Shown: positions 316 through 19,589 of the stretch, one piece after another
How the letters are laid out: the number at the start of each line of letters is the position of its first letter
Position numbering within the stretch: the stretch's first letter is position 1
Assembly (NCBI RefSeq): GCF_008692195.1
Contig: NZ_RXOM01000024.1
Location: 1-54,172, forward strand
DNA: 54,172 nt
Reading direction: 5' to 3'
DNA from: Salegentibacter sp. R32
GTDB lineage: Bacteria; Bacteroidota; Bacteroidia; Flavobacteriales; Flavobacteriaceae
Translations under genes and position numbers: made by a program
The notes under the pieces: model-generated
Database searches by the model: none
The model's input: the letters and a program-made list of their open reading frames with translations, nothing else
What the model was told of the DNA's origin: nothing

Positions 316-333
316 AGTATAGTACAGGATACT
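316..333 (+). promoter_or_regulatory. Operator copy 1 of the pectin locus
   Basis: The 18-mer AGTATAGTACAGGATACT is an imperfect inverted repeat with arms AGTAT/ATACT and a symmetric T/A pair inside. It lies 65 bp before the susC start codon. Close relatives stand before the GH31 gene (16/18 identical) and the esterase/GH2 operon (14/18, opposite strand). All three have the same 19-base offset to a -7-like box. The likely binding protein is the GntR-type regulator encoded at 19598-20644; that link is inference. Confidence 0.72.
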
Positions 334-351
334 AAAAAAGTTATATCAAAA

Positions 352-359
352 TATATTTG
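352..359 (+). promoter_or_regulatory. -7 promoter element of susC (pectin locus)
   Basis: TATATTTG fits the Bacteroidota -7 consensus TAnnTTTG. It lies 39 bp before the susC ATG. The operator at 316-333 sits where the -33 TTG box would be expected, and no good TTG box is visible there. This suggests either activator-dependent transcription or a repressor blocking the polymerase. Confidence 0.55.
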
Positions 360-398
360 AGTGTTAAATAATTGTGAATTTTATAATTAATCAACAAT

Positions 399-3300
399 AT
401 GAAACACAACTTACAAAAAATGATTGCATTGAGTGTGATATTCTTAATATCCATTTCAATGTATGCACAAGAGCAAACGGTAACCGGTACGGTACAAGAT
501 GCCAACAATGTACCATTACCGGGGGTAAATATTTTAATTAAAGGAACCAATCAGGGGACACAAAGTGATTTTGATGGAAACTTTTCTATTGAAGCTTCAG
601 ATGGCGATGTGATTGTTTTTTCGTATGTAGGTACGAAAACGATTGAGAAAACTGTAGGCGAAGATGACTTTGGTTCAATAACAATGGATTCAGATAGTTC
701 AGAATTGGATGAAGTTGTAGTAGTAGGTTACGGAACTCAAAAACGTAAATTGGCAACTGGCTCTATAGGCTCGTTGGATACAGAAAATTTTGTAGAAAGA
801 CCTATAACAAGAGTAGACCAAGGCTTAATAGGCCAAATGGCAGGGGTAAGTGTGCAACAAACTAGTGGAATGCCGGGTAGCCCTCTTAGTATTAGAATTA
901 GGGGAACAGGATCTATCACAGCTGGTAATGAACCATTATATGTGATTGATGGTTTCCCTGTGGAGACCAATGGAGTTAATTCTAATGGTAATTTTACAAA
1001 TGGTAGTCCTCTAGATAACATTAACCCTAATGATATCGAATCTATAGAAGTTTTGAAGGATGCCGCCGCCGCCGCTATTTATGGTTCGAGAGCTTCTAAT
1101 GGTGTAGTTATCGTTACTACCAAAAAAGGTAAAATGGGAAAACCTAAATTTACACTTAATACTTATGGAGGTATATCACAAGAGGCAAGGAGAGTAGATA
1201 TGTTGAATGCGGAAGAATGGATTGACCGTGCAAAAACAATGATCGATCAGCAATGGGTGAATTCTGGGATTCCGGGAGCAAACGCTAGTCAATCTATCGA
1301 GGAAAGAAGAAATATTTATAATCAATATCAAATTTCTGAAGGAAATGATATACTGGGTCCTGATGAATTTGATACAGGTTATATGTATGATCCTCGTTGG
1401 GAGTTACCGGGTTATGGTGATCTTGATGTAATAGATTGGCAAGATAGAATTTTTAGAACTGGAGTTTTTCAAAACTATCAATTATCAGTGTCAGGAGCAA
1501 CAGAAGATATCAACTATTATGTGTCGGGTAATTATCAAAAGAATGAGGGATATATTATTAATACCGATTTTGAGCAATTTGGAGCGAGAGCTAATATTAC
1601 GGCTAATATTACCGATAGATTATCTATGGGGGTAAATTTAGCTCCATCTTATTCTATTAAGAATGATCCGGGAGTTGAAGGGAAAGATAATACTTTGCAT
1701 AAAACAATATCAACAACTCCCTTGATGGAGAGTACACCCAATGAGTCTGGTGAATTATATACGACTAGATATGCATGGGGAAGTAGTAATACCGATCCAC
1801 TTCCTAGATTAAATAGAACCGGTAAGGCGAGTATGTTCAGAAATTTATTTACTACCTTTTTGAATTTTGAAGTTTTAGATGGATTAACCTTAAGAAGTAC
1901 ATTTAATTTTGATAACACCGATAGAACTTCAGAATCATATTTACCTAATGATAATCTTGAAAGCATTCGTGGCGGGTTTGGAACTTATAGAAAGCAGAAC
2001 TTAGTAAACGAGAATACTTTAAATTATGTGAACTCTTTTGGTGAGCATAATTTTAATTTCTTATTAGGACATTCTTATAATAAATATCAAATATCTTCTT
2101 CAAGCTTAAGTTCTGGTAATCGTTATACTAGATATGGTATTTATACCTTGCCTGATGGATCAACTGGGGGTACAAGTGCTTCGAGAAACGTGATGATATC
2201 TTACTTCTCTCGATTGCAATACGATTTTAAAGAAAAATATTTATTGACATTAAGTTTAAGAACAGATGGTTCATCAAAATTTGGTCCAGAAAATAGGTGG
2301 GGTCTTTTTCCGGCAATATCCGCGGGTTGGAGAATTAGTGAAGAGAGTTTTTTGGATAATGCAAATTGGTTGAGTGAATTAAAACTTAGATTAAGCTATG
2401 GAGTTAACGGTAGTAATAATATTGGGCCATATGACTGGAGATCAACTTTAAGTGCCAGTAATTATGTAATAGGTAATTCGTCTGTTCCTGGTACTGGAGT
2501 CGCTAGTATACCAAATAATTCGATAAGTTGGGAAGAATCTGAAAGTACTAATATTGGATTGGATTTAGGTCTCTTTAAAGGTCGTGTAAGTACCACACTG
2601 AACTTTTATAGAAAAGAAAATTCAAAATTATTATTAGAAGTTCCTGCCGTTCAAGCCTCTGGTTTTAATAGTTATTTAGATAATATAGGTAGAGTAAGAA
2701 ATGATGGTGTTGAAGTTGAGTTAACTACATACAATATTGTAAATAATGATTTTCAATGGAAAACTTCCCTTAATGCCAGCCACAATAAGAATGAAGTTTT
2801 AGAATTAGGGCCTGGACAAGAACGTATAGAAGTATCTTCCGGCTACAGCAATATTCCTTTTGTTGTTTTAGAAGTAGGAAAACCTATGTATCAAATTCAT
2901 ACCATTCAACAAGATGGTGTTTTAACCGCAGAAGATGTAGCTAATGGTGCTGCAACGTATGGAGGAGGTGATCCGGTTTTAGGAGATCCAAAATATGTAG
3001 ATCAAAATGGGGATGGTGTGATCAATGCAGATGATCGAGTAGATATAGGTAGCCCTTTTCCAAAAATCAATTGGGGGATAACCAATACATTTAAATACAA
3101 AAAGTTTGATTTAAACATCTTGCTCCAAGGCCAAAATGGAGGGAAAGTAATAAGCCTTTTAGATCGTGCCATAAATAGAACCGGAATGTCTGCTGGAGAA
3201 AATCACTTAGATGTAGATCCTAATGTTCAAGGTAACTGGAAAACTAATTTCGGTTATGTAGTAAATAGTTCTTGGGTGTATGATTCAGATTACATTAGTT

Positions 3301-3533
3301 TACGAAATATAACTTTAGGTTTTGATATGTCTGATTTTTTTGGAGAAAGAATTTCAGGAGCCAGGATTTATGCTACTGCAGAAAATTGGTTGTATTGGAC
3401 AGACTATAGTGGTTTTAACCCAGAGGCTACCAATGCACCGGCCAGTAATGATGGTAGATTCCCAGTGCCGGCAGATTATGGTGGAGCTCCTATTGCAAAA
3501 ACACTAATCGTGGGATTAAATTTTAATTTTTAA
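399..3533 (+). CDS. SusC/RagA-type TonB-dependent oligosaccharide transporter (pectin locus)
   Basis: Outer-membrane active transporter that, with its SusD partner, imports oligosaccharides using TonB energy. The 1044-residue length is normal for SusC. It has a signal peptide (about residues 1-24, ending MYAQ), a carboxypeptidase-regulatory-like domain (about 27-100) with the usual LPGVNI pattern, a TonB-box-like DEVVVVGYG (104-112), a plug domain (about 115-240), then the beta-barrel ending in the terminal aromatic LNFNF. It is the first gene of the plus-strand arm; susD follows after 11 bp, so the two are cotranscribed. The operator at 316-333 and -7 box at 352 control it. The pectin substrate is inferred from the PL1 and PL11 neighbours. 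Confidence 0.95.
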   Translation: MKHNLQKMIALSVIFLISISMYAQEQTVTGTVQDANNVPLPGVNILIKGTNQGTQSDFDGNFSIEASDGDVIVFSYVGTKTIEKTVGEDDFGSITMDSDSSELDEVVVVGYGTQKRKLATGSIGSLDTENFVERPITRVDQGLIGQMAGVSVQQTSGMPGSPLSIRIRGTGSITAGNEPLYVIDGFPVETNGVNSNGNFTNGSPLDNINPNDIESIEVLKDAAAAAIYGSRASNGVVIVTTKKGKMGKPKFTLNTYGGISQEARRVDMLNAEEWIDRAKTMIDQQWVNSGIPGANASQSIEERRNIYNQYQISEGNDILGPDEFDTGYMYDPRWELPGYGDLDVIDWQDRIFRTGVFQNYQLSVSGATEDINYYVSGNYQKNEGYIINTDFEQFGARANITANITDRLSMGVNLAPSYSIKNDPGVEGKDNTLHKTISTTPLMESTPNESGELYTTRYAWGSSNTDPLPRLNRTGKASMFRNLFTTFLNFEVLDGLTLRSTFNFDNTDRTSESYLPNDNLESIRGGFGTYRKQNLVNENTLNYVNSFGEHNFNFLLGHSYNKYQISSSSLSSGNRYTRYGIYTLPDGSTGGTSASRNVMISYFSRLQYDFKEKYLLTLSLRTDGSSKFGPENRWGLFPAISAGWRISEESFLDNANWLSELKLRLSYGVNGSNNIGPYDWRSTLSASNYVIGNSSVPGTGVASIPNNSISWEESESTNIGLDLGLFKGRVSTTLNFYRKENSKLLLEVPAVQASGFNSYLDNIGRVRNDGVEVELTTYNIVNNDFQWKTSLNASHNKNEVLELGPGQERIEVSSGYSNIPFVVLEVGKPMYQIHTIQQDGVLTAEDVANGAATYGGGDPVLGDPKYVDQNGDGVINADDRVDIGSPFPKINWGITNTFKYKKFDLNILLQGQNGGKVISLLDRAINRTGMSAGENHLDVDPNVQGNWKTNFGYVVNSSWVYDSDYISLRNITLGFDMSDFFGERISGARIYATAENWLYWTDYSGFNPEATNAPASNDGRFPVPADYGGAPIAKTLIVGLNFNF

Positions 3534-3544
3534 AAAAAAAGAAC

Positions 3545-5053
3545 ATGAAAAGATTTATATATATACCAATTCTCATTCTTTTATTTGCTTGTGATTCAGA
3601 TTTAGATCAGATTCCCTTATCGACAGGGACCACAGAAAATTTTTACTCAAATCAAAATGATTTTGAACAAGCAAGAAATGCAACGTATTCATCAGGTCTT
3701 TATTCATATCCAACACGTTTGATGAATTTAAGTGAAACAAGATCTGATAATATATATACTGTACCTGATGTAAATTATGGATGGTCAGAAATTCATAATT
3801 TCTTTTCTTCGATTACAGCTAACGGATTCATCGAAGAGGCCTATGCAACTAATTACAATGCAATTTATAAAGCCAACCAATTAATTGAAAAATTAGCAGA
3901 AAATGGTCAAGTAATTACCAATGAAGAGGTAAGATTGAATATAGAGGCAGAGGCCCATTTTATGAGAGCTTTCTGTTATTTTGATCTAGTTCGTTGGTTT
4001 GGACCGGTACCCCTTCTAGATCGTACTGTTTCACCTCAAGAAGCTGCAGAAATACCAAGAGCACCTGTAGAAGATGTTTATGAACTTATCATATCAGATT
4101 TGCAATTTGCCGTTGAAAATCTTCCAGAGAGTTATGAAGATGATAATTTTGGCAGGGTTTCTAAATATGGAGCTAAAGGAATTTTAGGATTGGTTTATAT
4201 GACGCGCTCAAGTGAAACTTATGGGATTGACGGTCCGGGGTTAAACTCAGGTGAATGGGATTTAGCCTATCAACAGTTAAATGATATCAAAAACAGTGGT
4301 TTATTTGAATTAGAAGAAGATTATAGTACAATTTTTTTAACAGAAGGAAACCAAAATTCTGAAAACGTATTTGTTATACCATTTTTAGAGAATACAGGTA
4401 ACGGAGTAGGTACAAATTTTATGTCTGAGCATATCGGTGCAGATTCTTATTTCGCGTCTTTAGGTTTATCAGCTCAAGGAGCTTCGGAAGGCAGATTTGT
4501 TTCACCTGATTTAAGAAGCAACTTTGCTGAAGGAGATTTGAGAGCAGAGTATGGTATCGTAGATGCTTACGTAGTGAATGAGGGTAGATGGGAAGGTTCT
4601 TATAATCGACCTGTGTATTCAAAATATGCTGATATCACTCGCTACGGAGATGGTAGAACAGATTGGGGAGTAGATTTTATGGTTCTTCGATATACCGATA
4701 TTTTAATGTTAATGGCAGAATGTACACTACATGGGGGTGGTGGTTCTCAGGCAGATGTAGATGCCATTGTAAACGACGTTCGGGAAAGAGCGGGACTAAC
4801 ACCGGATGCAGCAAATGTAAATTTAGAAGAATTATTTCAAGAACGACAAAAAGAATTTTTTGCTGAAGGAAATCGTTGGTTCGATTTGTTTAGATCAGGT
4901 AATGCAGTTGGTATTCTAAATGATTGGAAAAATGAAGTTGATGATCAAGATGCTCTAGGCGATATTACTCAAAATTCTTTAATATATCCAATCCCATTGC
5001 AGGAAACACTTTCCAATCCAGGTTTTTATGAGCAAAACCCTGGGTATAACTAA
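3545..5053 (+). CDS. SusD/RagB-type glycan-binding lipoprotein (pectin locus)
   Basis: Surface lipoprotein that caps the SusC channel and captures oligosaccharides. The lipobox LLFAC places the lipidated cysteine at residue 16. The body has the alpha-helical SusD pattern: NAIYKANQLIE, the helix EAHFMRAFCYFDLVRWFG, and the conserved C-terminal block (QERQKEFFAEGNRWFDLFRS, then IYPIP and NPGFYEQNPGYN). Length 502 residues is typical. It is paired with susC 11 bp upstream. A hairpin terminator 36 bp downstream separates it from the lyase gene, which may reduce expression of the distal gene. Confidence 0.95.
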   Translation: MKRFIYIPILILLFACDSDLDQIPLSTGTTENFYSNQNDFEQARNATYSSGLYSYPTRLMNLSETRSDNIYTVPDVNYGWSEIHNFFSSITANGFIEEAYATNYNAIYKANQLIEKLAENGQVITNEEVRLNIEAEAHFMRAFCYFDLVRWFGPVPLLDRTVSPQEAAEIPRAPVEDVYELIISDLQFAVENLPESYEDDNFGRVSKYGAKGILGLVYMTRSSETYGIDGPGLNSGEWDLAYQQLNDIKNSGLFELEEDYSTIFLTEGNQNSENVFVIPFLENTGNGVGTNFMSEHIGADSYFASLGLSAQGASEGRFVSPDLRSNFAEGDLRAEYGIVDAYVVNEGRWEGSYNRPVYSKYADITRYGDGRTDWGVDFMVLRYTDILMLMAECTLHGGGGSQADVDAIVNDVRERAGLTPDAANVNLEELFQERQKEFFAEGNRWFDLFRSGNAVGILNDWKNEVDDQDALGDITQNSLIYPIPLQETLSNPGFYEQNPGYN

Positions 5054-5089
5054 AATAAAATTCCACTTTTAATTTTTTTGAATTGTTCT

Positions 5090-5125: not shown

Positions 5126-5158
5126 AAAGATTCCCCTTTATTTTAAAAAGACTTAATA

Positions 5159-6586
5159 ATGAAACTTCACAACAAATCTAAGTTAGTATTTGCAGTAATT
5201 GCCATAAGTGTTTTCTTTTGCTGTAAAACAGAACACTCGCATAAAAAACAAAAATCATCAGATCATTCAACTCAGTCTTATGTATTGGCCTTTCCGGGAG
5301 CAGAAGGCTTCGGGAAGTATGCCAAAGGAGCAAGAGCAGTAAAAAAACCGGAAGTCTATAAAGTTACCAATTTAAATGATTCAGGCGAGGGGTCATTTCG
5401 GGAAGCTGTTAGCAAACCGGGAAGATTTGTTGTGTTTACGGTTAGTGGCATCATACATTTAAAATCACAAATTACAGTTAAAGAGAATATTACTATTGCT
5501 GGGCAAACAGCCCCCGGAGATGGAGTGATGTTTTATGGGAATAAAATTTCTTTTACAGGAGCCAATGAAACTATTGCAAGATATTTAAGAATAAGATGTG
5601 GTCAACCGGAACAACTTTCAAAAAATACAGATGCATCGGGAATTTCTAATGGAAAAAACATAATATTAGATCACCTTTCGGTGTATTGGGGCTTAGATGA
5701 AGTTTTATCAATTAATTGGAATAAGAATAAAAAAGGCTTTGAACCCGATAGTATAACCATTCAAAACTCGATAATAGCCCAAGGGCTGCATTATTTTAAT
5801 CATTCTGCAGGTGGTCTAATTCAATCTGAAAATGGTCACATCAGTATTATAAAAAATCTATATGCCAGTAATAAAACAAGAAATCCCAAAGTAAAAGGGA
5901 AAAATGAATATGTTAATAATATCATCTATAATTTTGGGAATCTAGGTAACCCTAAAGGTCATACCGTTTCTGGAGCTGCCTATATAATGGGAGGATCTGC
6001 GATGGTTTCTAAAGCAAATATTATCAATAATTACTTTATTAGTGGTCCTCTAACCCCGAACACTTTTAAAACTCCTTTCTCAAGAGGAACATCTACCTTT
6101 CATTTATTCGCAGAAGGGAATTATTTTGATAATAATAAAAATGGAGAATTAGATGGGAAATTAATAACTGAAGATACATTAAGTTATCCGGGAATAGTAA
6201 AATTGAGAACAAAACCCTTCGATTATCCTTACTTAAAATCTGCACTTTCAGCGAAAAAAGCATTTCAACATGTTCAAAATAAGGTAGGGGCCAATTTACC
6301 TAAAAGAGATGAAATCGATAGTCTTATCATTTCAGAATTAACTTCATTGGGAAAAAAAGGGTTATATGTTTATACTGAAGAAGATTTACCTTTTTCTAAT
6401 AATGGACTCGGGAATTATTCTAATGCTATTGTACCAAAAGATAGCGATAATGATGGAATACCGGACAAATGGGAAAATAATAACGATTTAAATAAGAATG
6501 ATCCTACCGATGCTTTGGAATACAGTAGTATAAATACGGGTTATTTGAATATAGAAATCTATCTAAATAGCCTCGTAGATTTATAA
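5159..6586 (+). CDS. Pectate lyase family PL1-like lipoprotein
   Basis: Probably cleaves homogalacturonan or pectate by beta-elimination at the cell surface. An N-terminal signal with lipobox SVFFC/C predicts a lipoprotein (Cys21 or 22). The mature part opens with LAFPGAEGFGKYAKGARA and VTNLNDSGEGSFREAV, then ITIAGQTAPGDG and ISNGKNIILDHLSVYWGLDE, the parallel beta-helix pattern of bacterial PL1-type pectate lyases. Near the C-terminus DSDNDGIPDKWE resembles a calcium-binding thrombospondin-type-3/dockerin-like loop. It lies 105 bp after susD beyond a terminator-like hairpin and is followed by another terminator. The exact PL1 subfamily and preference for methylated substrate cannot be read from sequence. 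Confidence 0.85.
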   Translation: MKLHNKSKLVFAVIAISVFFCCKTEHSHKKQKSSDHSTQSYVLAFPGAEGFGKYAKGARAVKKPEVYKVTNLNDSGEGSFREAVSKPGRFVVFTVSGIIHLKSQITVKENITIAGQTAPGDGVMFYGNKISFTGANETIARYLRIRCGQPEQLSKNTDASGISNGKNIILDHLSVYWGLDEVLSINWNKNKKGFEPDSITIQNSIIAQGLHYFNHSAGGLIQSENGHISIIKNLYASNKTRNPKVKGKNEYVNNIIYNFGNLGNPKGHTVSGAAYIMGGSAMVSKANIINNYFISGPLTPNTFKTPFSRGTSTFHLFAEGNYFDNNKNGELDGKLITEDTLSYPGIVKLRTKPFDYPYLKSALSAKKAFQHVQNKVGANLPKRDEIDSLIISELTSLGKKGLYVYTEEDLPFSNNGLGNYSNAIVPKDSDNDGIPDKWENNNDLNKNDPTDALEYSSINTGYLNIEIYLNSLVDL

Positions 6587-6604
6587 TTTTTATTAAACCT
6601 AAAA

Positions 6605-6630: not shown

Positions 6631-6638
6631 ATAAACAC

Positions 6639-6656
6639 AGTATAGAGCAGGATACT
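6639..6656 (+). promoter_or_regulatory. Operator copy 2 of the pectin locus
   Basis: AGTATAGAGCAGGATACT differs from copy 1 at only two positions. A -7-like box TATATTTA begins at 6675, exactly 19 bp after the operator end, as in copy 1. The site lies 55 bp before the TTG start chosen for the GH31 gene. Confidence 0.72.
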
Positions 6657-6711
6657 ATCAGTGCTCACAAATATTATATTTACAAACACTAAAATTTTAA
6701 AATACTTAAGT

Positions 6712-9105
6712 TTGAAAAAATTAGGACTCACAGTTTTTAGCTTCTTTCTGTCATTTAGTTTTTTTGCTCAGCAAATAGGTGACTTTCAAAAATTTAAAAA
6801 AGAAAAGAACAATACCTTTCATTTAAAAACCTCAGAAGCCAATGTGAAAGTTGAATTCTGTACTTCTTCTATCGTTCGGTTTAGAACCTCTTGGAACGGA
6901 GATTTTCGAGAAAACGAACCTTATATGGTTTCTAACTATAATTGGGATCAGGTAGAAGTTCAACAAAATGAGAATTCTGAAAAACTAAGCTTTCAAACCA
7001 GTCAATTAAATGTTGAAATTCAAAAAAGTCCGTTTAAAATTCATATTTACGATAAACAAGGTAATTTATTAAATGCCGATGTTGTTGCAAAAAAAGAGTC
7101 TTCAGAAGAAACTTTTGGCGCGACCAAAAAACTACAAGCCGATGAGCATTTCTTCGGTTTTGGTGAACGTATGGATGTACTTGACCGTCGTGGTAAAGAA
7201 GTAACTTTAAACGTTGGTCGCGGTTTAGGAAAGCCGCATATTATCGGCGCATATAATGTTTTAGAAGCTAATTATGCACCGGTGCCATTTTTTATGAGCA
7301 CCAAAGGCTACGGTATTTTCTACCATACTTCTTATCCTTCTACTTGGGATATGGGAAAATCAAATACTAAAACCTATACATTTTCTTCGGAAGATAAAGA
7401 GCTCGATTACTATTTTATTTATGGACCAAAATTTCCCAAAATCTTAGATGGCTATACATCAATCACCGGTAAATCAACAATGCTTCCTAAATTTGCGATG
7501 GGATTACACGTGGGAACGTATAGCGGAGGAACTTGGGGACACGAAGAGAAAACCTCAGCCAATTATCCTGTCGCTTTAGTCGAGAAATTTAGACAATTTC
7601 AAATTCCTATCGATGTACTTCACTTAGATTCTACCTGGAGAATGTTTGGTGAAAATGGAGGGAGCGGAGCCACTACTTTTGAGTGGAGAGAAACCTTTCA
7701 CGATACAGAAAAAATGTTTGATAGTTTATATGCGCTAAATTTAAACGCGGTAGGTTTACACGTTCGTCCGCGTTTTGATAATGGTAAAAAATTACGCTTG
7801 TTAGATGAAGCAAGAGAAGCCGGTTACGTTTATCCTGAACCTAATAATTCAGGTGAATTCGTCAACTTTTTCGATGAAGATGCTGTAAACTGGTGGTGGG
7901 AAAACGGAGCGATGCGCGTGGCAGAGCAAGGTGCTATGTTCTTTAAAACAGATGAAGGAAGTGCTTTTGGTAGAAAGGCTAACGAGAGTAATAAAACCGG
8001 ACCACAAGGACAAGAAATCACCTCGCTACACAACGTATTTCCGGTAGCTTATGCAAAAGCTCCTTACGAGAAATATCAGGAATATAATAAAATGCGTGGG
8101 ATGAATCACACTCGTGAAGGTTATGCCGGGATTCAACGTTATCCGTTTATTTGGGCAGGAGATTGGCCAAGTGAATGGCAATATTTTGAGCCGGTAATCA
8201 AAGCCGGGCTCAACATCGGGATGTCCGGTGTAGGCTATTGGAGCCACAATATGGGCGGTTTCGAGCACGTCGCAGATCCGGAATTATACATAAGATGGTG
8301 CCAATTCGGCTTTTTTAGTCCGGTAGCCCATTTATTTGGGATGGAGCATCCCAATTATAAAGAACCTTGGAATTACGGTGAAGAAGCGCAACGTATCTTT
8401 AAGCAGTATGATGACCTGCGTTATAGTTTAATTCCGTATATCTACAGTACCTCTTACGAAAATCACCAAACCGGGATGCCATTAATGCGCGCTTTGGTAT
8501 TAGATTATCAAGACGACCCTAATGTTTACGAGATTACCGATCAGTATTTATTTGGGAAAAGTATGATGATTTGTCCTGTAACCACCAAAGGTGCAAAAAC
8601 AAGAACTGTTTATTTGCCTGAAGGAAATTGGACCAATTACTGGACAGGCGAACAATTTGAAGGGAAACAATACTTAAACGTACTTTGCCCGATTGAAGAA
8701 ATGCCGATTTTTATAAAAGGTGGAGCCATTATTCCTTCGCAAGAAGTTGTGCAATATGTAGGAGAAAAAGAAATTGAAACCATTACACTAGATATTTATC
8801 CCGACGGAAATTCTTCGTTTTCACTTTATGATGATGATGGTAAAAGTTTAGATTATCAAAAGGGAAAATATGCGCTAACTAAAATTGAAGTAAATGCTGA
8901 AGAAAATCAAGTTGAAGTAACAATTCAACCTGCTGAAGGGAAATACAAACTAGACGATAGAACTTACAAAATCCGTTTACACGGAAATTATTCCGCAGCA
9001 AAATCAAACGGGAAATCTTTAGAAATTCAGCAAAAAGAAAATGTTTCGACGGTAAGTATTTCAACTAATTCTAAGAAGAAAAGTAGTATCAATTTTTCAA
9101 AGTAA
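6712..9105 (+). CDS. GH31 family alpha-glycosidase, secreted
   Basis: Retaining alpha-glycosidase, probably periplasmic, trimming alpha-linked sugars (xylose, glucose or galactose) from imported oligosaccharides. The GH31 barrel shows MGLHVGTYSGGTWGHEE, the nucleophile region FFKTDEGSAFG, the acid/base region FIWAGDWPSEWQYFEP, and SGVGYWSHNMGGF. The length of about 800 residues is normal. I chose TTG at 6712 because it gives a clean signal peptide (MKKLGLTVFSFFLSFSFFAQ). The upstream GTG at 6661 would add 17 unneeded residues and would start 5 bp after the operator, within the predicted promoter. Substrate specificity is unresolved; the pectin context suggests side-chain removal. Confidence 0.88.
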   Translation: MKKLGLTVFSFFLSFSFFAQQIGDFQKFKKEKNNTFHLKTSEANVKVEFCTSSIVRFRTSWNGDFRENEPYMVSNYNWDQVEVQQNENSEKLSFQTSQLNVEIQKSPFKIHIYDKQGNLLNADVVAKKESSEETFGATKKLQADEHFFGFGERMDVLDRRGKEVTLNVGRGLGKPHIIGAYNVLEANYAPVPFFMSTKGYGIFYHTSYPSTWDMGKSNTKTYTFSSEDKELDYYFIYGPKFPKILDGYTSITGKSTMLPKFAMGLHVGTYSGGTWGHEEKTSANYPVALVEKFRQFQIPIDVLHLDSTWRMFGENGGSGATTFEWRETFHDTEKMFDSLYALNLNAVGLHVRPRFDNGKKLRLLDEAREAGYVYPEPNNSGEFVNFFDEDAVNWWWENGAMRVAEQGAMFFKTDEGSAFGRKANESNKTGPQGQEITSLHNVFPVAYAKAPYEKYQEYNKMRGMNHTREGYAGIQRYPFIWAGDWPSEWQYFEPVIKAGLNIGMSGVGYWSHNMGGFEHVADPELYIRWCQFGFFSPVAHLFGMEHPNYKEPWNYGEEAQRIFKQYDDLRYSLIPYIYSTSYENHQTGMPLMRALVLDYQDDPNVYEITDQYLFGKSMMICPVTTKGAKTRTVYLPEGNWTNYWTGEQFEGKQYLNVLCPIEEMPIFIKGGAIIPSQEVVQYVGEKEIETITLDIYPDGNSSFSLYDDDGKSLDYQKGKYALTKIEVNAEENQVEVTIQPAEGKYKLDDRTYKIRLHGNYSAAKSNGKSLEIQQKENVSTVSISTNSKKKSSINFSK

Positions 9106-11455: not shown

Positions 11456-13273
11456 TTACATTCCTGTCCCAAGATAAAAACTAGGGTGAGGCGGTTGATT
11501 ATAGCCTACATTTTGCCAAACTAAACTTAAGCGGTATTGACGATCTTGTATTAGCGTAGGAAGCTTAAATGAAGTCGGAATTGTAGTTGAATAAATTCTT
11601 AATTCTTGATTGTCTTCACTTCTAAGTATTAATTCTTCACGCCAATCCCCTAAAATGTCACCCGAAAGACAGGGAGTAGCTTTAGATCCGTTATTAGATA
11701 AAGCTCCCTGAGCCTTAAAAATAATACCTTTATTGTATTTTTTGATATAATTCTTATCCAACAACTCTCGTGATAAATCCCCATCCCACCAAATAAGAAA
11801 ATTCATTTCTTTCGGCGCTTTCCCAATTATATTTCCTTTAATATCATATAGGTTAGGATTTCCCGACCACCACATTTGAGCTCCTTTTTCACTAGGAACT
11901 ATATTCCCGGCTACACCGCGACCTACATCTTTATCTAAAGAAGCTTTAAACAGAAGCTCTCCATTTTTAGCTCGATATAGGGTGACTCCTGGACCGTGCG
12001 TGCTATTTTCAATTTCATGGATATTAAAAATTTCCAAACCAGGGAGATCGGGATCTAAATCACTTATATGCATGGCGTCACCGTGGCGAAATCCGGTAGT
12101 GTATAAACCGGTGCCATCATCATCTACCGTCATTGCACCAAAGATAATTTCATCTTTTCCATCGTTATCTACATCGGCTACAGAAAGTCCATGATTTCCC
12201 ATCCCAGAATAAGGGTTTTTGCCATTTTCGGTATCAAACACCCAACGGGATTTTATTTCACCTTGTTCAAAATCAAAGGCAGTTAAAACACTTCTTCCAT
12301 AGTAGCCTCTCCCCATAATAAAACTAGGATGCTCTCCATCGAGATAAGCAACGGCAGCGGTAAAACGATCCACCCGGTTTCCGTTACTATCACTACCTCC
12401 ATTGCCACCTTTGCCTCCCCATTTACCAATATCTCCACGGGGCGGAATGTAATCTACCGTAGCCAATGCTTTACCGGTAGTGCCTTCAAACACAGTTAAA
12501 TATTCAGGCCCTTGAAGTACTTTACCGTATTTTTTTGAGTTTTTCTCATAGTTTCGCCAATCTTTATTTTTATCACCAATGTAATTTCCTTTGCCATCCA
12601 AAGAGCCATCTGCGGTTTTACATACCAGTTCTGCTTCGCCATCCCCATCAAAATCATATACCAAAAATTGAGTATAATGGGCCCCTTCCCGAATGTTAAT
12701 CCCTAAATTAATTTCCCAAAGCATTGTTCCATCCATTTCATAAGCTTGTAGAATAGCAGGGTCGGTTAATCCAGTATGAGAATTATCGTGAGCACGTCCT
12801 GTTTGATGTAAAATAATTTCATATTGCCCATCTCCATCTAAATCTGCTACAGAAGCATCATTAGGAGTATATCCTTTAGGAGTGTGTAAAGGAAGGGAAA
12901 AGTAAGGTTGAGGTTCAGCTTCAGCAAGAAGGCTGAATGAACCCGGTTCCTCTTTTTCTTTAGAATCCAAGATACTCTTAACAAACCAAGTGTTTTCTGA
13001 AGAGTTGTTGAACGTAGAATCAATACTCCAAGTTTTATTTGATATAGGTTGCGAATTTACCTTCACGGTTCTTCTGTTATCATCCTTCCGGTATAAATTA
13101 AAAGCAAGCTTTGGATCATCCTGTTTAAATGAACGCCAACTAATAAAAACTTTATTTCTGGCTTCTTTAATAGCCACAAGGCCACGGTCTAATTTTTCAA
13201 GTTCCTGTCCTGTTGAGATTATACTGTAACATACACAAAAAACATAAATTAAAATTCTATAATTTTTTTTCAT
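11456..13273 (-). CDS. Rhamnogalacturonan lyase, family PL11
   Basis: Cleaves the rhamnose-galacturonic acid backbone of rhamnogalacturonan I by beta-elimination. After a signal peptide (about 1-22, ending STGQ) comes EKLDRGLVAIKEARNKVFIS, a small beta domain, and then an eight-bladed propeller marked by calcium-binding repeats (ASVADLDGDGQYE, VYDFDGDGEAE, SVADVDNDGKDE, DILGDWREELI). GRGYYGRSVL and HGDAMHISDLDPDLPG are typical PL11 blocks. The 605-residue length is normal. It lies 15 bp downstream of the SGNH esterase gene on the same strand, so the two are cotranscribed. Together with rhamnose mutarotase it is the best evidence that this locus targets rhamnogalacturonan I. Confidence 0.94.
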   Translation of the reverse strand: MKKNYRILIYVFCVCYSIISTGQELEKLDRGLVAIKEARNKVFISWRSFKQDDPKLAFNLYRKDDNRRTVKVNSQPISNKTWSIDSTFNNSSENTWFVKSILDSKEKEEPGSFSLLAEAEPQPYFSLPLHTPKGYTPNDASVADLDGDGQYEIILHQTGRAHDNSHTGLTDPAILQAYEMDGTMLWEINLGINIREGAHYTQFLVYDFDGDGEAELVCKTADGSLDGKGNYIGDKNKDWRNYEKNSKKYGKVLQGPEYLTVFEGTTGKALATVDYIPPRGDIGKWGGKGGNGGSDSNGNRVDRFTAAVAYLDGEHPSFIMGRGYYGRSVLTAFDFEQGEIKSRWVFDTENGKNPYSGMGNHGLSVADVDNDGKDEIIFGAMTVDDDGTGLYTTGFRHGDAMHISDLDPDLPGLEIFNIHEIENSTHGPGVTLYRAKNGELLFKASLDKDVGRGVAGNIVPSEKGAQMWWSGNPNLYDIKGNIIGKAPKEMNFLIWWDGDLSRELLDKNYIKKYNKGIIFKAQGALSNNGSKATPCLSGDILGDWREELILRSEDNQELRIYSTTIPTSFKLPTLIQDRQYRLSLVWQNVGYNQPPHPSFYLGTGM

Positions 13274-13288
13274 TATTTCTTGATTTTT

Positions 13289-14791
13289 CTATTGATTTAA
13301 ATAAATATAATCGCGGATGTAGCAATTTCTAATTTGCTCTAAGTTTTCAGCAACCGTTAAGGCGTTCACTTCTGCGCCTTCTCTATTGGTGTGCGTATGG
13401 TCTTTTGGAAAATACTCCTTCACTTTATCTTTTCCCATTGCTTCATATTTGAGGGCTACAGCATCATTCAGATTTACAAAAATGGCATCCATCTCTTCCG
13501 CAGCTTGTTTTGCTAAACCAGCATAATCGTCATCATTGCGCTCTACTTTATCTCTGTGCCAAATATTTCTAGGAACCATACTCAACACAATAGGAGTGGC
13601 GCCTTTGGCTTTGGTTTCTTCAATGTATTTTTTCATATACCAACCATAGGTGTGCACCACTTCGGTACTATCGTTTCCAAATTCTACTACCTGCGTTTCA
13701 TCGCCCATTCCGCGAATAGAACCACGATATTTTGGCGTATCGATGTGTCCGCCATCGTTATGCCCAAATTGCATCAATACAAAATCTTCTTCGTTAAGCG
13801 AATCTTTCACTTCGTCCCACAAACCTTCACCGCGATAGGTACGACTGCTGCGACCTCCTCTGGCTTTGTTATGAATGCGAACTCGGGTAGTATCGAAATA
13901 TTTTTCGAAAACAACACCCCAACCTACCAGCGTATCGTTATTGCTGGCAACGGTAGAATCGCCGATAAGAAAAATATCCTTTTTTTCCGGTAAATGGGTT
14001 CTCGGATTTTCTACTATATATTTCTTTAAACTATTATTGCTTTCCGATAATCCTTTGCTGATTAAGCGAGCCGATAACAAAGCACCATGTGCAGAAGTAT
14101 GCGTATGGTCACGTTTGTAAAAGTAGGTTCCGGTTACTTTATCTTCACCCATAGGATTCAAAGTGTTCACCATTCTTTCATTTAAATTGATGAAGGTAAC
14201 GCCTTCTTCTTCGACAACTTGTTTTGCCCAACCCCCATACGATTTATCGTTTCTAGACAATTTTCCGTCCGTCCAATCATTACGTGGAATCGGTGACATC
14301 ACTATCGGAATTGCTCCTTTCTCCTTCGCTTCTTTGATCACTTTACGCAAATACCAACCGTAAGAATGTACTACTTCGTGTTCGCCGGTAAGCATATTGT
14401 CAATTTCTTCGCTTTCTTCTCCAACTCCTTTAATAGTTCCACGTGCACGAAAATCATCATTAATAGGTCCATTATCATTATGACCGAATTGCAACAACAC
14501 ATAATCTCCTTTTTTCAAGCTGTCTTTCACCGGTTCCCACAGCCCTTTGCTCTGGAAAGTTCGGCTACTAGTGCCGCCTAAAGCGTGGTTTTCAATATCG
14601 ACTTGGGTGGTATCTAGAAACTGATCCATATAATCACCCCAGCCCCAAAGTCCGCCGTCACCTTTACCGCTACCATTTTTCACAGTAGAATCGCCGATGA
14701 TGTAAACGGTGGGTTTGCCTTCTGGTTTTTGTTCGCAGCTCACAAAGCTTGCCATAAGTAATAACACAGCAAATAACTTGGTTGTTTTCAT
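13289..14791 (-). CDS. Tandem double-domain SGNH/GDSL (CE12-like) rhamnogalacturonan acetylesterase
   Basis: Probably removes acetyl groups from rhamnogalacturonan so that the lyases can act. The protein is a fusion of two homologous SGNH hydrolase domains: domain 1 (about 28-255) with IIGDSTV, LGGTSSRTF, LLQFGHNDNGP and DHTHTSAHGA, and domain 2 (about 270-490) with LIGDSTV, RGGRSSRTY, LMQFGHNDGGH and DHTHTNREGA. Catalytic Ser (GDST) and the D-x-x-H pair are intact in both, so both should be active. An N-terminal lipobox (MASFVSC) predicts a lipoprotein. Single-domain CE12 enzymes have about 250 residues, so the doubling is real. It lies between the repeat-filled gap and the PL11 gene. Confidence 0.88.
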   Translation of the reverse strand: MKTTKLFAVLLLMASFVSCEQKPEGKPTVYIIGDSTVKNGSGKGDGGLWGWGDYMDQFLDTTQVDIENHALGGTSSRTFQSKGLWEPVKDSLKKGDYVLLQFGHNDNGPINDDFRARGTIKGVGEESEEIDNMLTGEHEVVHSYGWYLRKVIKEAKEKGAIPIVMSPIPRNDWTDGKLSRNDKSYGGWAKQVVEEEGVTFINLNERMVNTLNPMGEDKVTGTYFYKRDHTHTSAHGALLSARLISKGLSESNNSLKKYIVENPRTHLPEKKDIFLIGDSTVASNNDTLVGWGVVFEKYFDTTRVRIHNKARGGRSSRTYRGEGLWDEVKDSLNEEDFVLMQFGHNDGGHIDTPKYRGSIRGMGDETQVVEFGNDSTEVVHTYGWYMKKYIEETKAKGATPIVLSMVPRNIWHRDKVERNDDDYAGLAKQAAEEMDAIFVNLNDAVALKYEAMGKDKVKEYFPKDHTHTNREGAEVNALTVAENLEQIRNCYIRDYIYLNQ

Positions 14792-15102: not shown

Positions 15103-17958
15103 CTACTCTTCAAAATCTCTGAAATCAAACCATAATTTCATAGAAATACCATCATCACCATTTTTGATTCGGATGTTGGTTGGTTGACTGCTTGGTCCTT
15201 GTTGCGAAAGCGGTTTAAAAGCGTGCATTCCTGGAATCTCGTACATAAACGAAATATTTCCTTCTGGAAAACTTGGGTGTGCTTTGGCTCTGGATACAAT
15301 ATTTTTAGGACTATCTGGCGTAAATAAACGTAGGAATAGTTTATCTGATTCACTGAAAATTCTAAAAGTTTTGTCTTTCGCTTCTAGTTTTCCGGCAATG
15401 AAATTCGCGTGGTATCCTTTAAATTCAGGATAGATAAGATTTTCAAAACTTTCTCCTGTAATGGTGTTGTTGTAATCTTTGTCCCAAACGTTGTATTCTA
15501 CTCCGTCCAAACGGTTTTTCCAAACGCGGTACGGACCTTTTCCAAACCATTTGAAACCTTCTACAATCTCTTCTGGAAAATCAAACGTAAGTCCGAATTT
15601 GCTAATTTCTCCCTGGAAAAATGCGCCATCAAAACCACTGTTACGTCCGGCATTTTTCAGCATAATCGCTGCCATATGTACTCTTCCGTCGTTAGTGATG
15701 GTCCATTTGATATGATCGATGCCGCCATTGTAAAAAACGGTAGCTACCGCATTTTCTTTGTTGTTTTTGATTTCAATTTTATCCACTTCGGCTTGCATCC
15801 CAATTGGGCGAGGACCGTTTACAAATGGCATTTCACCTTTGGCGTTGGTGATTTTAGTAATTTCACCTGTCTTTTTATCGAGTGTTAGGCTTACGTTTCC
15901 ACCACTTAAAACAACCGAATTTCCATTTTCTGTAGCGCTAACTTTTTCTCCATTGTCTTTTTGAATGAATTTTGCAGCAAATGCATCAGCGTGATGAATT
16001 TTCCACGTCCAGGTATAAATTTCTCTTCCGTGTTTGTCGGTTGCTGTAATTTCAACCCAATCACCTTCAAAGAAATTGTCTTTTACAGGCATTTTTAACT
16101 TTCGGGTTTCTCCCGGTTGAATGTCTGAAACTTCAAAATCTCCTTTGTAAATGGTTTGTACTTCAGCATTCACATACAAGAAGTTTGTTTGCGCCTGTTG
16201 TACTTTATAAGTGATGTTACACTCATTTAAATTGGTAAATAAATAGGTGTTTTCAACTAAAAAGTCACCATTAAAAGTTTGTGTGATCTGCAAAGGTTCA
16301 AACTGCATTGGCGCCCAAACTTCTTTTACAGCGTAGAAACTGCCTTCTTTTTCACGGTGTGGGCCCAAAGCTCCATCGGGTGCTAAATTTCCTTTAGAAT
16401 CATATTTTTGTTCTCCTGTCCAATCGGTTCTTAAGACGGCTTCGTCGCTAAACACCCAAAGAAAACTTCCGGCAAAAAGCGGACTTTCACTATAATGTTC
16501 CCAAAAATCCCGTAAACCTGAACCGATTCCATTATCATAGGTTCCGTGCATCGTTTCTGTTGGAAAAAATACATTTTCACCACTTCCAAAACGGTGCACT
16601 CCTGTTTGAAAAGTAGGGTAGTGGTGCGCATCCCAGCCGTTGAAATCTGCCCAAGGATGAATCACGATTCTGTTTTGCGGATCGTATTTTGCAAAATCAT
16701 CATCCAATTCATAGTTCCAGCCGCCTTCATTTCCCTGATCCCAAATAATAACTGAAGGGTGATTCACATCGCGCTCAACCATTTCTTTCACTAGTTTTTG
16801 TCCGGTTTCGGTGTCATATCCATTTTGCCATCCGGCTAATTCATCTAACACAAAAAGTCCTAGCGAATCACAAACTTCCAGAAAATGCGTGTCTGGCGGA
16901 TAATGAAAACGCACCGCATTCATATTCATATCTTTGATGAGGTTTACATCCATCAAGCTGATGCGTTTGCTAGTACTTCGCCCGGATTCTGGCCAAAAAG
17001 TATGGCGGTTGATTCCTTTCATTTTTATTTTGGTGCCGTTCACGTAAATTCCATCACGCTTTCTGAATTCTAAAGTTCTGAATCCAATACGTTTTTTGAT
17101 AGAATGTAAAACTTCTCCGTTTTTATTAAGATCGAATTGCACCCAATACAAATTAGGATCTTCCGGATTCCACGGATTCACATTTTCAAACTGAACCGAA
17201 ATTCGTTGTTTTTCAGCTTTTTTATCGAGCTCTTTTGTGAAATTTTTGAAACTTGAAGACGAAGCGCCATCTGCGATCAGTGAAATTTCAACTTCTGCAT
17301 TTTTAGTAAGATTTTTAAACTCTAAATCGGCAGTTAAATTCCCGTCTGCTTTTGCATCAATTGCCACGTGTTTGATATTAGTTTTTGGTAAAATAGTTAG
17401 CCAAACGGGACGGTAAATACCACCAAACAACCACCAATCTGCATAGCGTTCGGCTCTATTTACATTATGATTTTCTGAATGTTTCCAAACGTGGACTTCC
17501 AGTAGATTTTTTCCGTCCTCATTGATTAAATCAGAGATATCGTAGCTGAATTCATAAAAACCACCCTGATGTTTTTCACCGGCCAGTTTTCCGTTAATTT
17601 TTACTTCAGTATCAGTCATCGCACCACCAAAATGGATGATTACTTGCTGATCTTCATATTTCTGTGGAACTTCAAATTCATATTTATAAAAACCTTCTTC
17701 TTTGCTAGGTTCTTCCTTGTTCAATTCTTTGTACCAACGCCCGTAAGTATAGGTTCCGAAGCCCTCGGTTTCCCATTGCGATGGCACTCCGATTTTTGTC
17801 CATTTGCCTGAATTTTGCCCATCGGTTACTTTAAAATCCCATTCTTTTTGATGCTCAAAATCTGGACCTGAAAGCATTATTTTTTCAGTTTCCTGAGCGT
17901 TTATATTCAGAAGAAACAAAGAACAGAAGAGAAAGAAAGTAAGTTTTAGTTTGATCAT
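15103..17958 (-). CDS. GH2 family beta-galactosidase with beta-galactosidase small-chain domain
   Basis: Retaining exo-beta-galactosidase, probably periplasmic, removing terminal galactose from pectic side chains. After a signal peptide (about 1-21, ending NINAQ) come the sugar-binding domain (KIGVPSQWETEGFGTYTYG), the immunoglobulin-like domain, and the barrel with GINRHTFWPESGRS, the acid/base region VIIWDQGNEGG and a nucleophile region around FPTETMHGTYDNG. The C-terminal third (from about residue 690) is the LacZ-type small-chain domain (GPRPIGMQAEVD, WFGKGPYRVWKNR). Length 951 matches LacZ-type GH2. It starts 31 bp after the esterase gene stop, so the two form an operon. Confidence 0.92.
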   Translation of the reverse strand: MIKLKLTFFLFCSLFLLNINAQETEKIMLSGPDFEHQKEWDFKVTDGQNSGKWTKIGVPSQWETEGFGTYTYGRWYKELNKEEPSKEEGFYKYEFEVPQKYEDQQVIIHFGGAMTDTEVKINGKLAGEKHQGGFYEFSYDISDLINEDGKNLLEVHVWKHSENHNVNRAERYADWWLFGGIYRPVWLTILPKTNIKHVAIDAKADGNLTADLEFKNLTKNAEVEISLIADGASSSSFKNFTKELDKKAEKQRISVQFENVNPWNPEDPNLYWVQFDLNKNGEVLHSIKKRIGFRTLEFRKRDGIYVNGTKIKMKGINRHTFWPESGRSTSKRISLMDVNLIKDMNMNAVRFHYPPDTHFLEVCDSLGLFVLDELAGWQNGYDTETGQKLVKEMVERDVNHPSVIIWDQGNEGGWNYELDDDFAKYDPQNRIVIHPWADFNGWDAHHYPTFQTGVHRFGSGENVFFPTETMHGTYDNGIGSGLRDFWEHYSESPLFAGSFLWVFSDEAVLRTDWTGEQKYDSKGNLAPDGALGPHREKEGSFYAVKEVWAPMQFEPLQITQTFNGDFLVENTYLFTNLNECNITYKVQQAQTNFLYVNAEVQTIYKGDFEVSDIQPGETRKLKMPVKDNFFEGDWVEITATDKHGREIYTWTWKIHHADAFAAKFIQKDNGEKVSATENGNSVVLSGGNVSLTLDKKTGEITKITNAKGEMPFVNGPRPIGMQAEVDKIEIKNNKENAVATVFYNGGIDHIKWTITNDGRVHMAAIMLKNAGRNSGFDGAFFQGEISKFGLTFDFPEEIVEGFKWFGKGPYRVWKNRLDGVEYNVWDKDYNNTITGESFENLIYPEFKGYHANFIAGKLEAKDKTFRIFSESDKLFLRLFTPDSPKNIVSRAKAHPSFPEGNISFMYEIPGMHAFKPLSQQGPSSQPTNIRIKNGDDGISMKLWFDFRDFEE

Positions 17959-17989
17959 TGTTGTTTAATTTCCGTAAGGTTTTATGCTT

Positions 17990-19522
17990 TCAAAACTTTT
18001 CGTAGGTTTCTCCCGGCCAATCATCGGTACGAAATGGCGAAGCCGGTAATCCGGCAGTATTGAATAAATTCGGTTCAGGAGATTTACTCCATCCAAAACG
18101 AACAGCCACTGGTTTTTTAACTTCAGCTGAAGAAACAATTACCGTATTCCCTTTTATTTTCGCTTTGGCAGGATAGAATTTTTGATCTTCACCGGCAATC
18201 TCAAAATGGGTGAGTTGTTTTCCCTTTTTCTGCAATCCGTTTTCAGCAAAGTCAAAATAGATCTGAATCTTGTTTCTTTTCACTTTAAAGTCTCTATAAA
18301 GCGGTCCTGAATATTCAATATTTTTTTCTTCATAGGTTTTTGAACGCGCCCAAAGCGCTAAACGACGGCCTACTTCTTGTTTATTTTCAGGATGAATATT
18401 TTTGGGATTTCCAATATCAGTGGTTACTACAATTCCGGTATTTTCCACTGACCGGTAAGCCATGAGTTGTGCTTCGCGTATTTCAGGATTCTGGCTATGA
18501 TGCGGAGCGATTTGTACAAAATAAAAGGGGAGTTGTTCTTGTTTCCAATCACTTCGCCAATTCTGGATCATATCGGGAAATAATGTTCGGTATTGATAAG
18601 CACGTTGAGCATTACTTTCGCCTTGGTACCAAGTAACTCCTTTGATAGTATAATTAATTAAAGGATATAACATCGCATTGTACAATACGTATGGATCTTT
18701 ATTTAACTCTCCATATTTTGGTTTCTCTAAAGTTAATTTGGTAGAATCTATTTGACTTTTTTTCTTCTCTTGATAATAGTGTTGTAACTTATTGTAATAA
18801 GAAATTTGTTTTTCGGTAAAGCGTTCTAAAATAGGAAGGTAATCAGGGGTATTTTCTAAAACTTCTTGAGAAGTCCAAGCTTCAGCGCGTGTGCCTCCCC
18901 AAGATGAAGAAATAAGTCCGATAGGGACGTTTAGATTTTTATAAAGATTTTTTCCAAAGAAATAAGCTACCCCAGAAAAATTGTAAACATTTTCTGGTGA
19001 AGTAACTTGCCAATAACCTTCAACATCATTTTCTGGAGTTTGAGAAGCTGCTAATCCTACTGTGAATAAACGAATTTCATTTTCCGTAGCATTTTTTATT
19101 TCTTCCTGATAATTGATTACACCGGTTTTCCAAGTGTTTTCTTGTTTGCCAAGCGGAAAAAACATGTTCGATTGTCCGGAGCATAACCAAACTTCACCAA
19201 ATAAAATGTCTTTTAGTTCTATTTTGTTATTTCCTTCTAAAGTGATTTGATGCTTTTGGTGATCGGCTTTTAGCGTTTTAATCGTGGTTTTCCAATTTCC
19301 ATCTTCATCAGAAAAAATGGTGATAGGTTTTGGCAGCCAATCGGTGGTAATGGTGATTTTTTCAGAAGGAGAAGCCCAACCCCAAAGCTTAACCTCGGTA
19401 TCTTGTTGCAAAACCATATGATCGCCCACCAAAGCGGGAAGCTTTAGCTGTGCTTGAACCGATAATTGAAAAAATAGTAAACCTATAGCTAGTAAGAAGT
19501 TGTGCTTCTGCTGTAATCTCAT
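17990..19522 (-). CDS. Sialate O-acetylesterase-like carbohydrate esterase
   Basis: SGNH-fold esterase of the sialate O-acetylesterase superfamily. In pectin loci such proteins are thought to deacetylate pectic oligosaccharides rather than sialic acid. A signal peptide (about 1-24, ending VQAQ) leads into LPALVGDHMVLQQDTEVKLW, the nucleophile block VWLCSGQSNMFFPLG, and VTWYQGESNAQRAYQY; the C-terminal part shows RFGWSKSPEPNLFN and LPASPFRTD, standard for the family. It is the first gene of the minus-strand arm, with operator copy 3 centred 58 bp upstream of the start codon. Exact substrate is inference. Confidence 0.88.
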   Translation of the reverse strand: MRLQQKHNFLLAIGLLFFQLSVQAQLKLPALVGDHMVLQQDTEVKLWGWASPSEKITITTDWLPKPITIFSDEDGNWKTTIKTLKADHQKHQITLEGNNKIELKDILFGEVWLCSGQSNMFFPLGKQENTWKTGVINYQEEIKNATENEIRLFTVGLAASQTPENDVEGYWQVTSPENVYNFSGVAYFFGKNLYKNLNVPIGLISSSWGGTRAEAWTSQEVLENTPDYLPILERFTEKQISYYNKLQHYYQEKKKSQIDSTKLTLEKPKYGELNKDPYVLYNAMLYPLINYTIKGVTWYQGESNAQRAYQYRTLFPDMIQNWRSDWKQEQLPFYFVQIAPHHSQNPEIREAQLMAYRSVENTGIVVTTDIGNPKNIHPENKQEVGRRLALWARSKTYEEKNIEYSGPLYRDFKVKRNKIQIYFDFAENGLQKKGKQLTHFEIAGEDQKFYPAKAKIKGNTVIVSSAEVKKPVAVRFGWSKSPEPNLFNTAGLPASPFRTDDWPGETYEKF

Positions 19523-19544
19523 AACTGAATTTTAAAATTCAGCA

Positions 19545-19552
19545 TTAAAGAT
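19545..19552 (-). promoter_or_regulatory. -7 promoter element of the minus-strand pectin operon
   Basis: Read on the minus strand this is TATCTTTA, a close match to TAnnTTTG. It begins exactly 19 bases after operator copy 3, the same spacing as before susC and GH31. It lies 22 bp before the esterase ATG. Confidence 0.5.
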
Positions 19553-19571
19553 AGAGGGCTTTAAATGCTTA

Positions 19572-19589
19572 GGTATCCTGTACTGTGAT
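19572..19589 (-). promoter_or_regulatory. Operator copy 3 of the pectin locus
   Basis: Minus-strand sequence ATCACAGTACAGGATACC shares 14 of 18 positions with copy 1, including an unbroken 12-base core AGTACAGGATAC. The left arm has diverged. It lies between the esterase operon promoter and the 3' end of the regulator gene. Confidence 0.68.

Follow-up and report, generated by a model that had tools for sequence, protein, structure and literature searches.

To our knowledge, little has been mapped of how flavobacteria control their polysaccharide loci, and the familiar models come from gut Bacteroides, namely its hybrid two-component and SusR systems. Amongst GntR regulators, AraR of Bacillus subtilis, an arabinose repressor with palindromic operators, has the same two-domain layout as the protein considered here; for a second, AusR, we presume the sensor to be LacI-type. 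As summarised in the excerpted account of AusR from Zobellia galactanivorans (PMC8286568), this GntR-family protein is sugar-responsive and controls most genes of a marine flavobacterial polysaccharide system, in which it resembles our candidate, but its genes are those of alginate use and it is reported to be a repressor, the comparison being one of descriptions only. Here we consider contig NZ_RXOM01000024.1 of Salegentibacter sp. R32, a stretch of 54,172 nt that is one entire contig (C25) of the 4.08-Mb genome and is termed the window throughout, together with a recurring promoter-associated site and the GntR/LacI-type protein encoded beside one of its copies, which is proposed to be an L-rhamnose regulator.

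Tandem sites and the genes that follow them

A scan of the complete genome with a composite motif (at most 2 mismatches) returned six occurrences, compared with none in a backwards-read control; two further places appear at 3 mismatches and are probably due to chance. All six, the only copies at this threshold, lie ahead of rhamnose or rhamnogalacturonan-I (RG-I) genes rather than being scattered amongst unrelated ones, and no alginate gene is found amongst the annotated genes that follow them. A reading of the window from its sequence alone (the sequence-only reading) had proposed a pectin regulon of three copies. Six copies exist, and the regulon is more aptly described as one of L-rhamnose and RG-I, because the other three copies precede the L-rhamnose catabolic operon, which bears a mismatch-free copy, and two operons for rhamnogalacturonan enzymes. 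The features concerned are listed below, in window coordinates unless contig C14 is named.

315..332, + strand: operator copy 1, CAGTATAG-TA-CAGGATAC, two tandem half-sites with a 10-bp period, 0 mismatches to the composite
352..359, + strand: -7 box TATATTTG, 19 nt 3′ of operator 1, predicted start at about 364
399..3533, + strand: SusC/RagA-type TonB-dependent transporter, target 1 (TIGR04056)
3545..5053, + strand: SusD-like lipoprotein, 3′ of target 1 (PF07980)
5159..6586, + strand: 475-aa protein that matches no Pfam family, third in order from operator 1 and a putative member of the operon
6638..6655, + strand: operator copy 2, CAGTATAG-AG-CAGGATAC, 1 mismatch to the composite
6675..6682, + strand: -7 box TATATTTA, 19 nt 3′ of operator 2, predicted start at about 6687
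6712..9105, + strand: GH31 glycosidase, target 2 (PF01055; listed open reading frame (ORF) 6661-9105)
11456..13273, - strand: PL11-type rhamnogalacturonan lyase, with which the target 3 cluster ends (PF21348)
13289..14791, - strand: GDSL-type esterase, target 3 cluster (PF13472)
15103..17958, - strand: GH2 protein resembling the exo-beta-1,4-galactosidase BT4156 (NF049891, 1265 bits, below the model cut-off of 1700)
17990..19522, - strand: SASA-type carbohydrate esterase, with which the target 3 cluster opens (PF03629)
19546..19553, - strand: -7 box TATCTTTA, 19 nt 3′ of operator 3, predicted start at about 19541
19573..19590, - strand: operator copy 3, CATCACAG-TA-CAGGATAC, 2 mismatches to the composite, 7 bases past the regulator stop codon
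19598..20644, - strand: 348-aa protein with GntR winged helix–turn–helix and LacI-type sugar sensor, proposed rhamnose regulator (PF00392 + PF13377)
C14, 33179: operator before the L-rhamnose catabolic operon (composite scan, 0 mismatches)
C14, 42751: operator before a GH28 cluster with a DUF4450/rhamnosidase-like protein and GH43 (composite scan)
C14, 51583: operator before a PL22-like/GH106/GH88 cluster, with 315 bp to the start of its first listed ORF

The site is a tandem repeat, CAGKAYAS-nA-CAGGATRS, with a 10-bp period. It was delineated by collecting the core ACAGGAT[AG] from loci of up to 20 kb in 60 relatives, from six stretches of the own genome and from the window, which gave 158 places, 88 of them outside ORFs; the 66 of these 88 that have a -7-like box were stacked, a set without window copy 2 (core GCAGGAT). 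Within the freely varying columns a weaker second copy stands 10 bp upstream, its leading C present in 61 of the 66 sites, and near-perfect repeats occur, such as CAGGATACTACAGGATAGC in locus L148. Identity across the stacked sites is 56 % for a period of 10, 53 % for a period of 5 (AGTAC-AGTAC), which partly overlaps the former signal, and 36 % for a palindrome, so that these operators do not take the inverted-repeat form associated with palindrome-binding GntR/LacI-type regulators. A palindromic model, AGTAT-N8-ATACT, was mostly noise over 30 loci and was abandoned for the tandem repeat, whilst the palindromic pattern AGTATnnTnnAnnATACT of the sequence-only reading arises by coincidence in copies 1 and 2. 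The columns that separate the operator from its box show no clear conservation, none exceeding 0.23 bits.

The three 18-mers from which that reading started are present where it placed them, and on the strands it gave. Its fixed operator-to-box distance likewise holds, with 18 bases separating 18-mer and box identically in all three copies, although the third box begins at 19553 and not at 19552. The conserved unit itself begins one base further 5′ (a C at 315, 6638 and 19590), giving 19 bases from unit to box. With as many as 3 mismatches allowed, AGTATAGTACAGGATACT matches copies 1 and 2 and nothing else in the window, where 0.02 matches would be expected from shuffling; copy 3 differs from it at four positions.

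Two observations concern the targets themselves. The GTG at 6661 that opens the listed GH31 frame is an unlikely start codon, because both the promoter box and the predicted transcription start lie 3′ of it; a better candidate is the in-frame TTG at 6712, after which comes a signal-peptide-like sequence. In addition, a Flavo-1 RNA (RF01705, 50.8 bits) is matched at 14842-14947 on the minus strand, between the GH2 and GDSL esterase genes of the target 3 cluster.

The regulator and its co-occurrence with the sites

The GntR winged helix–turn–helix of the 19598-20644 protein spans residues 17-79 (PF00392, E 2e-13); 14 PDB sequences match within residues 6-94, and there is a weak match to 4egy, the solved DNA-binding domain of an arabinose repressor. 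Its C-terminal sensor is LacI-type (PF13377), and a predicted model (mean local confidence, pLDDT, of 84), built with an alignment of 25 regulators, resembles RbsR, LacI and their relatives (best E 2.7e-13, template-modelling score about 0.5). Proteins from Mesonia oceanica and M. aestuariivivens are 96 and 93 % identical to it, respectively, so that the genome probably falls within Mesonia or near it.

Across 299 genomes of the Flavobacteriaceae, the composite (at most 2 mismatches) is found in 65, with 5 matches in total in reversed controls. Sixty of these 299 genomes were classed as regulator-positive (best match of at least 54 % identity, best E < 1e-113), and 59 of the 60 carry sites, compared with 6 of the other 239 (Fisher p = 2.7e-54), which bears out the connection drawn by the sequence-only reading between the shared operator and a GntR-headed protein with a sugar-sensor domain. 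The sole regulator-positive genome without a site (G256) has a diverged regulator (L138), and each of the six site-bearing others has just one match; amongst them, G064 encodes a more distant regulator beside rhaEW, the gene for a bifunctional rhamnulose-1-phosphate aldolase/dehydrogenase (L170). At the level of the class, 19 of 247 genomes have the regulator, 16 of them at 40 % identity or more, and 17 have sites, of which 10 coincide with those 16 (reversed control, 1). Outside the family, sites occur in 7 of 13 regulator genomes and in 7 of 227 others (p = 6e-7); three of the former have several (three in G319, five in G333 and eight in G329) and the remaining four have one apiece.

Chryseobacterium at first appeared to be an exception, as no site was present in 28 named loci of at most 7 kb, despite regulators of 69–71 % identity. 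This is explained by the short flanks of those loci, and the exception was discarded: whole genomes for 12 of the 28 each contain 2–4 composites, with 33 matches overall compared with 1 in the reversed control. Every one of the 12 has a CAGTATAGTRCGGGATRC-type site at the same 19-nt spacing, which in the three genomes examined locally precedes rhaEW on the same contig stretch. A second operator variant, CATGACACTACAAGATGC, identical or nearly so in 11 of the 12 genomes, stands before the gene ahead of a SusC-like gene, near GH88- and PL11-like genes (L269–L271).

Gene content likewise points to rhamnose. Within the relatives' loci, rhaEW is present in 37 of 60, directly divergent from the regulator in 33, and is usually accompanied by rhamnose isomerase and a rhamnulokinase-like gene. 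Including that of the own genome, there are 38 rhaEW operons, 37 of which have the composite directly upstream: 35 came from a scan with the gap fixed (L132 and L140 scoring low), and those of L142 and L151 lie inside over-long ORF calls. For the 38th (L156), the composite is ahead of an intervening gene and has an imperfect box. The regulator gene is thus found near rhamnose catabolic genes, with an operator before them, as befits an L-rhamnose regulator. In genomes with many sites (up to 18, in G163), sulfatases and GH39- or heparinase-like genes occur near the regulators, which suggests that sulfated rhamnans such as ulvan may be the substrates there. Adjacent pairs of regulator paralogues near rhamnose genes, several with sulfatase genes, were also observed in many-site genomes (L134, L139, L149, L153 and L154).

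In a midpoint-rooted tree of 88 regulators, 13 form a galactose clade (support 100/100) apart from the other 75, amongst which the window protein is nested; 50 of the 75 are in loci with rhaEW, and its clade is therefore one encoded mostly near rhamnose genes. Neighbours in the galactose clade are galK, galT and often a sodium/solute symporter. Its sites (L176–L188) repeat CTAGTAG at a 10-bp period and stand at varying distances from the -7 box, the regulator-side gaps being 20, 20, 31, 17, 23, 11, 18, 21 and 20 with unit ends taken loosely (of the 13 loci, three lacked a unit and one a box). Seven further loci (L169–L175) encode diverged rhamnose-side regulators of mostly 42–46 % identity, all but L172 with rhaEW. 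There, a relaxed tandem pattern (at most 3 mismatches) finds 18 non-ORF sites, compared with 4 in reversed sequence, with altered half-sites; five have perfect boxes at 19 nt, and no perfect box occurs at another gap within the range 5–39. A gap-fixed scan places such sites before rhaEW in three loci and before other genes in three, with none at L172. Taken with the galactose sites, this suggests that the 10-bp repeat is old in the regulator family, and that the strict distance is special to the rhamnose branch.

That these repeats reflect chance or promoter composition, and carry no regulatory meaning, might be argued from the shortness of the core and from the single matches in regulator-less family genomes. 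The backwards-read controls are nearly matchless, and spacing, orientation and gene content are concordant; we regard this explanation as refuted, with a residual probability close to nil. A different binder, for instance an AraC-type or hybrid two-component activator with the GntR gene as a mere travelling companion, deserves somewhat more attention. In the portion of PMC3878776 consulted, AraC-like hybrid two-component regulators and SusR are described as typically having tandem repeats; an AraC-like gene adjoins the regulator (20865-21647), and family F12, one member of which was read as a hybrid two-component system with an AraC-type helix–turn–helix, recurs in 10 of the 67 stretches. Yet the family of the adjoining protein (F357) occurs once in those 67 stretches, F12 is found in only 2 of the 38 rhaEW loci, and both were rejected as binders on these counts. 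Amongst the linked genes examined, no hybrid two-component gene is constantly associated with the sites, F12 being absent from the window, and the repeats of hybrid systems average about 21 bp rather than 10 (PMC3878776, same portion). With the sites tracking the GntR clade in family genomes and in Chryseobacterium alike, a different binder seems decidedly improbable.

Promoter geometry and mode of action

The spacing between operator and box was assessed by four approaches in which it was left free, namely a search with ACAGGATA, a matrix scan of named loci, a leave-one-locus-out analysis and the relaxed pattern applied to the diverged regulators; the gap-fixed scans of rhaEW operons and diverged regulators offer no independent evidence on this point. 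Searched alone in the relatives' loci, ACAGGATA occurs 84 times, compared with 16 in the reversed control, and is followed by TAnnTTT[GA] 28 times at one offset and at most 3 times at any other. In 72 of 80 named loci (8 duplicates having been dropped), the operator matrix at 17 bits found 59 matches, distributed over 35 loci, and reversed sequence gave none; 42 of the 59 have the box at 19 nt, and five other gaps are represented by one match each (binomial p of about 3e-62 under uniform offsets). Once three more loci sharing an exact 120-mer with the training loci were removed, which left loci that had no part in the matrix, a perfect box stood at exactly 19 nt in 39 of 55 matches (32 of 69 loci). 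Leaving out one locus at a time, the 67 stretches yielded 77 sites in promoter regions and a single one within an ORF; a perfect box lies at 19 nt in 43 of the 77, at 18 in one and at 20 in none, and 27 of the remaining 34 bear an imperfect TA-initial box at the same place. With regard to orientation, 32 of these sites face only toward one gene, 3 face away from their sole neighbour, 41 are flanked by genes on both sides and one has no gene beside it. Together with the Chryseobacterium results, the 39 of 55 favour the assignment of regulator, operator and rhamnose to one another, which we predict with high confidence; they leave the balance between activator and repressor unchanged.

As described for Flavobacterium psychrophilum in the excerpt of PMC9723704, the corresponding box occupies -12 to -5. 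On that basis the operator would extend from -49 to -32, centred near -40.5 and over the -33 region of the predicted start sites. A class-II activator site is expected near -41, overlapping the -35/-33 element in one orientation, and given this placement of the box the geometry agrees. A one-way site at a fixed distance, centred near -40.5, is something that a repressor does not need, and a class-II-type activator is therefore suggested; we consider activation the probable mode.

The sites would accordingly be read as operators of the 19598-20644 protein, the putative L-rhamnose regulator of this flavobacterium. Two CAGGATA-like half-sites, in tandem and in the same direction on one helix face, 19 nt 5′ of TAnnTTTG, would be bound by a dimer whose sensor domain holds rhamnose or one of its metabolites, a ligand suggested by the targets, and the bound regulator would touch RNA polymerase and so activate transcription. 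Induced together would be the rhamnose catabolic operon, the RG-I SusCD transporter, the GH31 enzyme, the esterase–GH2–PL11 cluster, the GH28 operon and the PL22–GH106–GH88 operon. The computations show the site with its architecture, spacing and orientation, the six targets and the co-occurrence with this regulator across genomes; from these we infer that this particular protein is the binder, that it binds as a dimer, which sugar is the effector and that it activates instead of repressing. A rhamnose regulator activating six operons from fixed tandem sites is, overall, the explanation we believe likely to be right.

The same regulator and operators could alternatively serve repression, the protein blocking RNA polymerase over the -33 region until released by rhamnose or an oligosaccharide. 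AraR, a GntR regulator with a LacI-type sensor, is a repressor. AusR, the nearest flavobacterial regulator described, represses alginate genes according to the same partial account (PMC8286568). Sites of the galactose sister clade, which lie in divergent promoters at varying distances, are also repressor-like, and a -33 TTG is rare anyway at ordinary flavobacterial boxes in these loci. A repressor, however, needs no asymmetric site of one orientation at an exact distance across dozens of promoters, a distance that is kept even where the half-site letters have changed with the diverged regulators. Repression is consequently a possibility that we rate as rather unlikely.

In addition to these two repressors, several points weigh against activation by this protein, or against parts of the evidence for it. 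The fixed spacing could also come from an operator having to overlap one promoter element. It is true, as the sequence-only reading held, that the operator covers -33 with no competing TTG at these sites, but as evidence this is weak: a TTG starts 20–24 nt upstream of 14 % of 165 ordinary boxes and of 1 in 29 operator boxes, too small a contrast for its absence to be kept as proof of activation. Gaps in the galactose clade are not random, 7 of 9 falling within 17–23, so that the contrast with the rhamnose branch is moderate. The 5- and 10-bp periods overlap in part, and the invariance of ACAGGAT is not a result, because this core was imposed when sites were collected. Beyond the family, sites are present in only 7 of the 13 genomes with the regulator, and four of these 7 show a single match, as do genomes lacking the regulator. 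Lastly, annotation covered part of the recurring families near the sites, so that another binder could be missed, and F12 does recur, as noted above.

Elsewhere in the window, a second, starch-type SusCD locus (44543-53723, with SusE/F-like, GH13 and GH97 genes) has no operator at up to 3 mismatches. Genes for DUF6088 and AbiEii-type proteins at 31555-33257 resemble a type IV toxin–antitoxin pair.

Relation to known systems

Amongst the literature matches listed, which did not extend to the primary study of AusR, no paper connects the rhamnose or rhamnogalacturonan genes of Flavobacteriia with a GntR regulator, in keeping with the earlier suggestion that the motif and its regulator were undescribed. 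The broadest form of the proposal has a one-component GntR/LacI-type sensor acting as class-II activator on a one-turn tandem repeat, invariantly 19 nt from the Bacteroidetes -7 box, and, in Flavobacteriaceae, in Chryseobacterium and in some further families of Bacteroidia, as a master switch that ties rhamnose catabolism to loci for rhamnose polymers (RG-I pectin, or sulfatase-rich and ulvan-like, where a genome can have as many as 18 sites); for this we would put the chances at about even. A single sugar-sensing protein appears to switch rhamnose and pectin digestion genes jointly in flavobacteria, by a mode of action that is predicted. Operator, regulator and regulon are concrete enough to be read in any genome, and they predict the loci that are devoted to polymers rich in rhamnose, RG-I and ulvan being examples. 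The strict promoter geometry allows GntR-type activation to be tested directly with the Bacteroidetes primary sigma factor, for which the galactose sister clade, with the same 10-bp repeat and looser spacing, is a natural contrast.

Comparison with Bacteroides, by description and within the portion of PMC3878776 consulted, reveals partial counterparts. RhaR (BT3768) also controls L-rhamnose catabolism, but is an AraC-family protein with a single operon as its regulon. FucR (BT1272) and ManR (BT2103) are, like the window protein, GntR-family sugar regulators, for fucose and mannose, respectively, and ManR also covers a SusCD locus; they differ in their sugars, and that portion mentions no fixed-distance tandem operator for them. 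Hybrid two-component and SusR systems share the use of tandem-repeat operators in polysaccharide loci, including those for rhamnogalacturonan, but belong to other protein families and have repeat distances of about 21 or 67–77 bp (PMC3878776). With regard to mode of action, direct-repeat-binding, activating GntR proteins are already known in the MocR subfamily (GabR, TauR and PdxR), as far as the excerpt of PMC5320631 describes them: these share the GntR helix–turn–helix, often bind direct repeats, lie divergent to their targets and often activate, whilst their sensor domain is aminotransferase-like and that of the window regulator is LacI-type.

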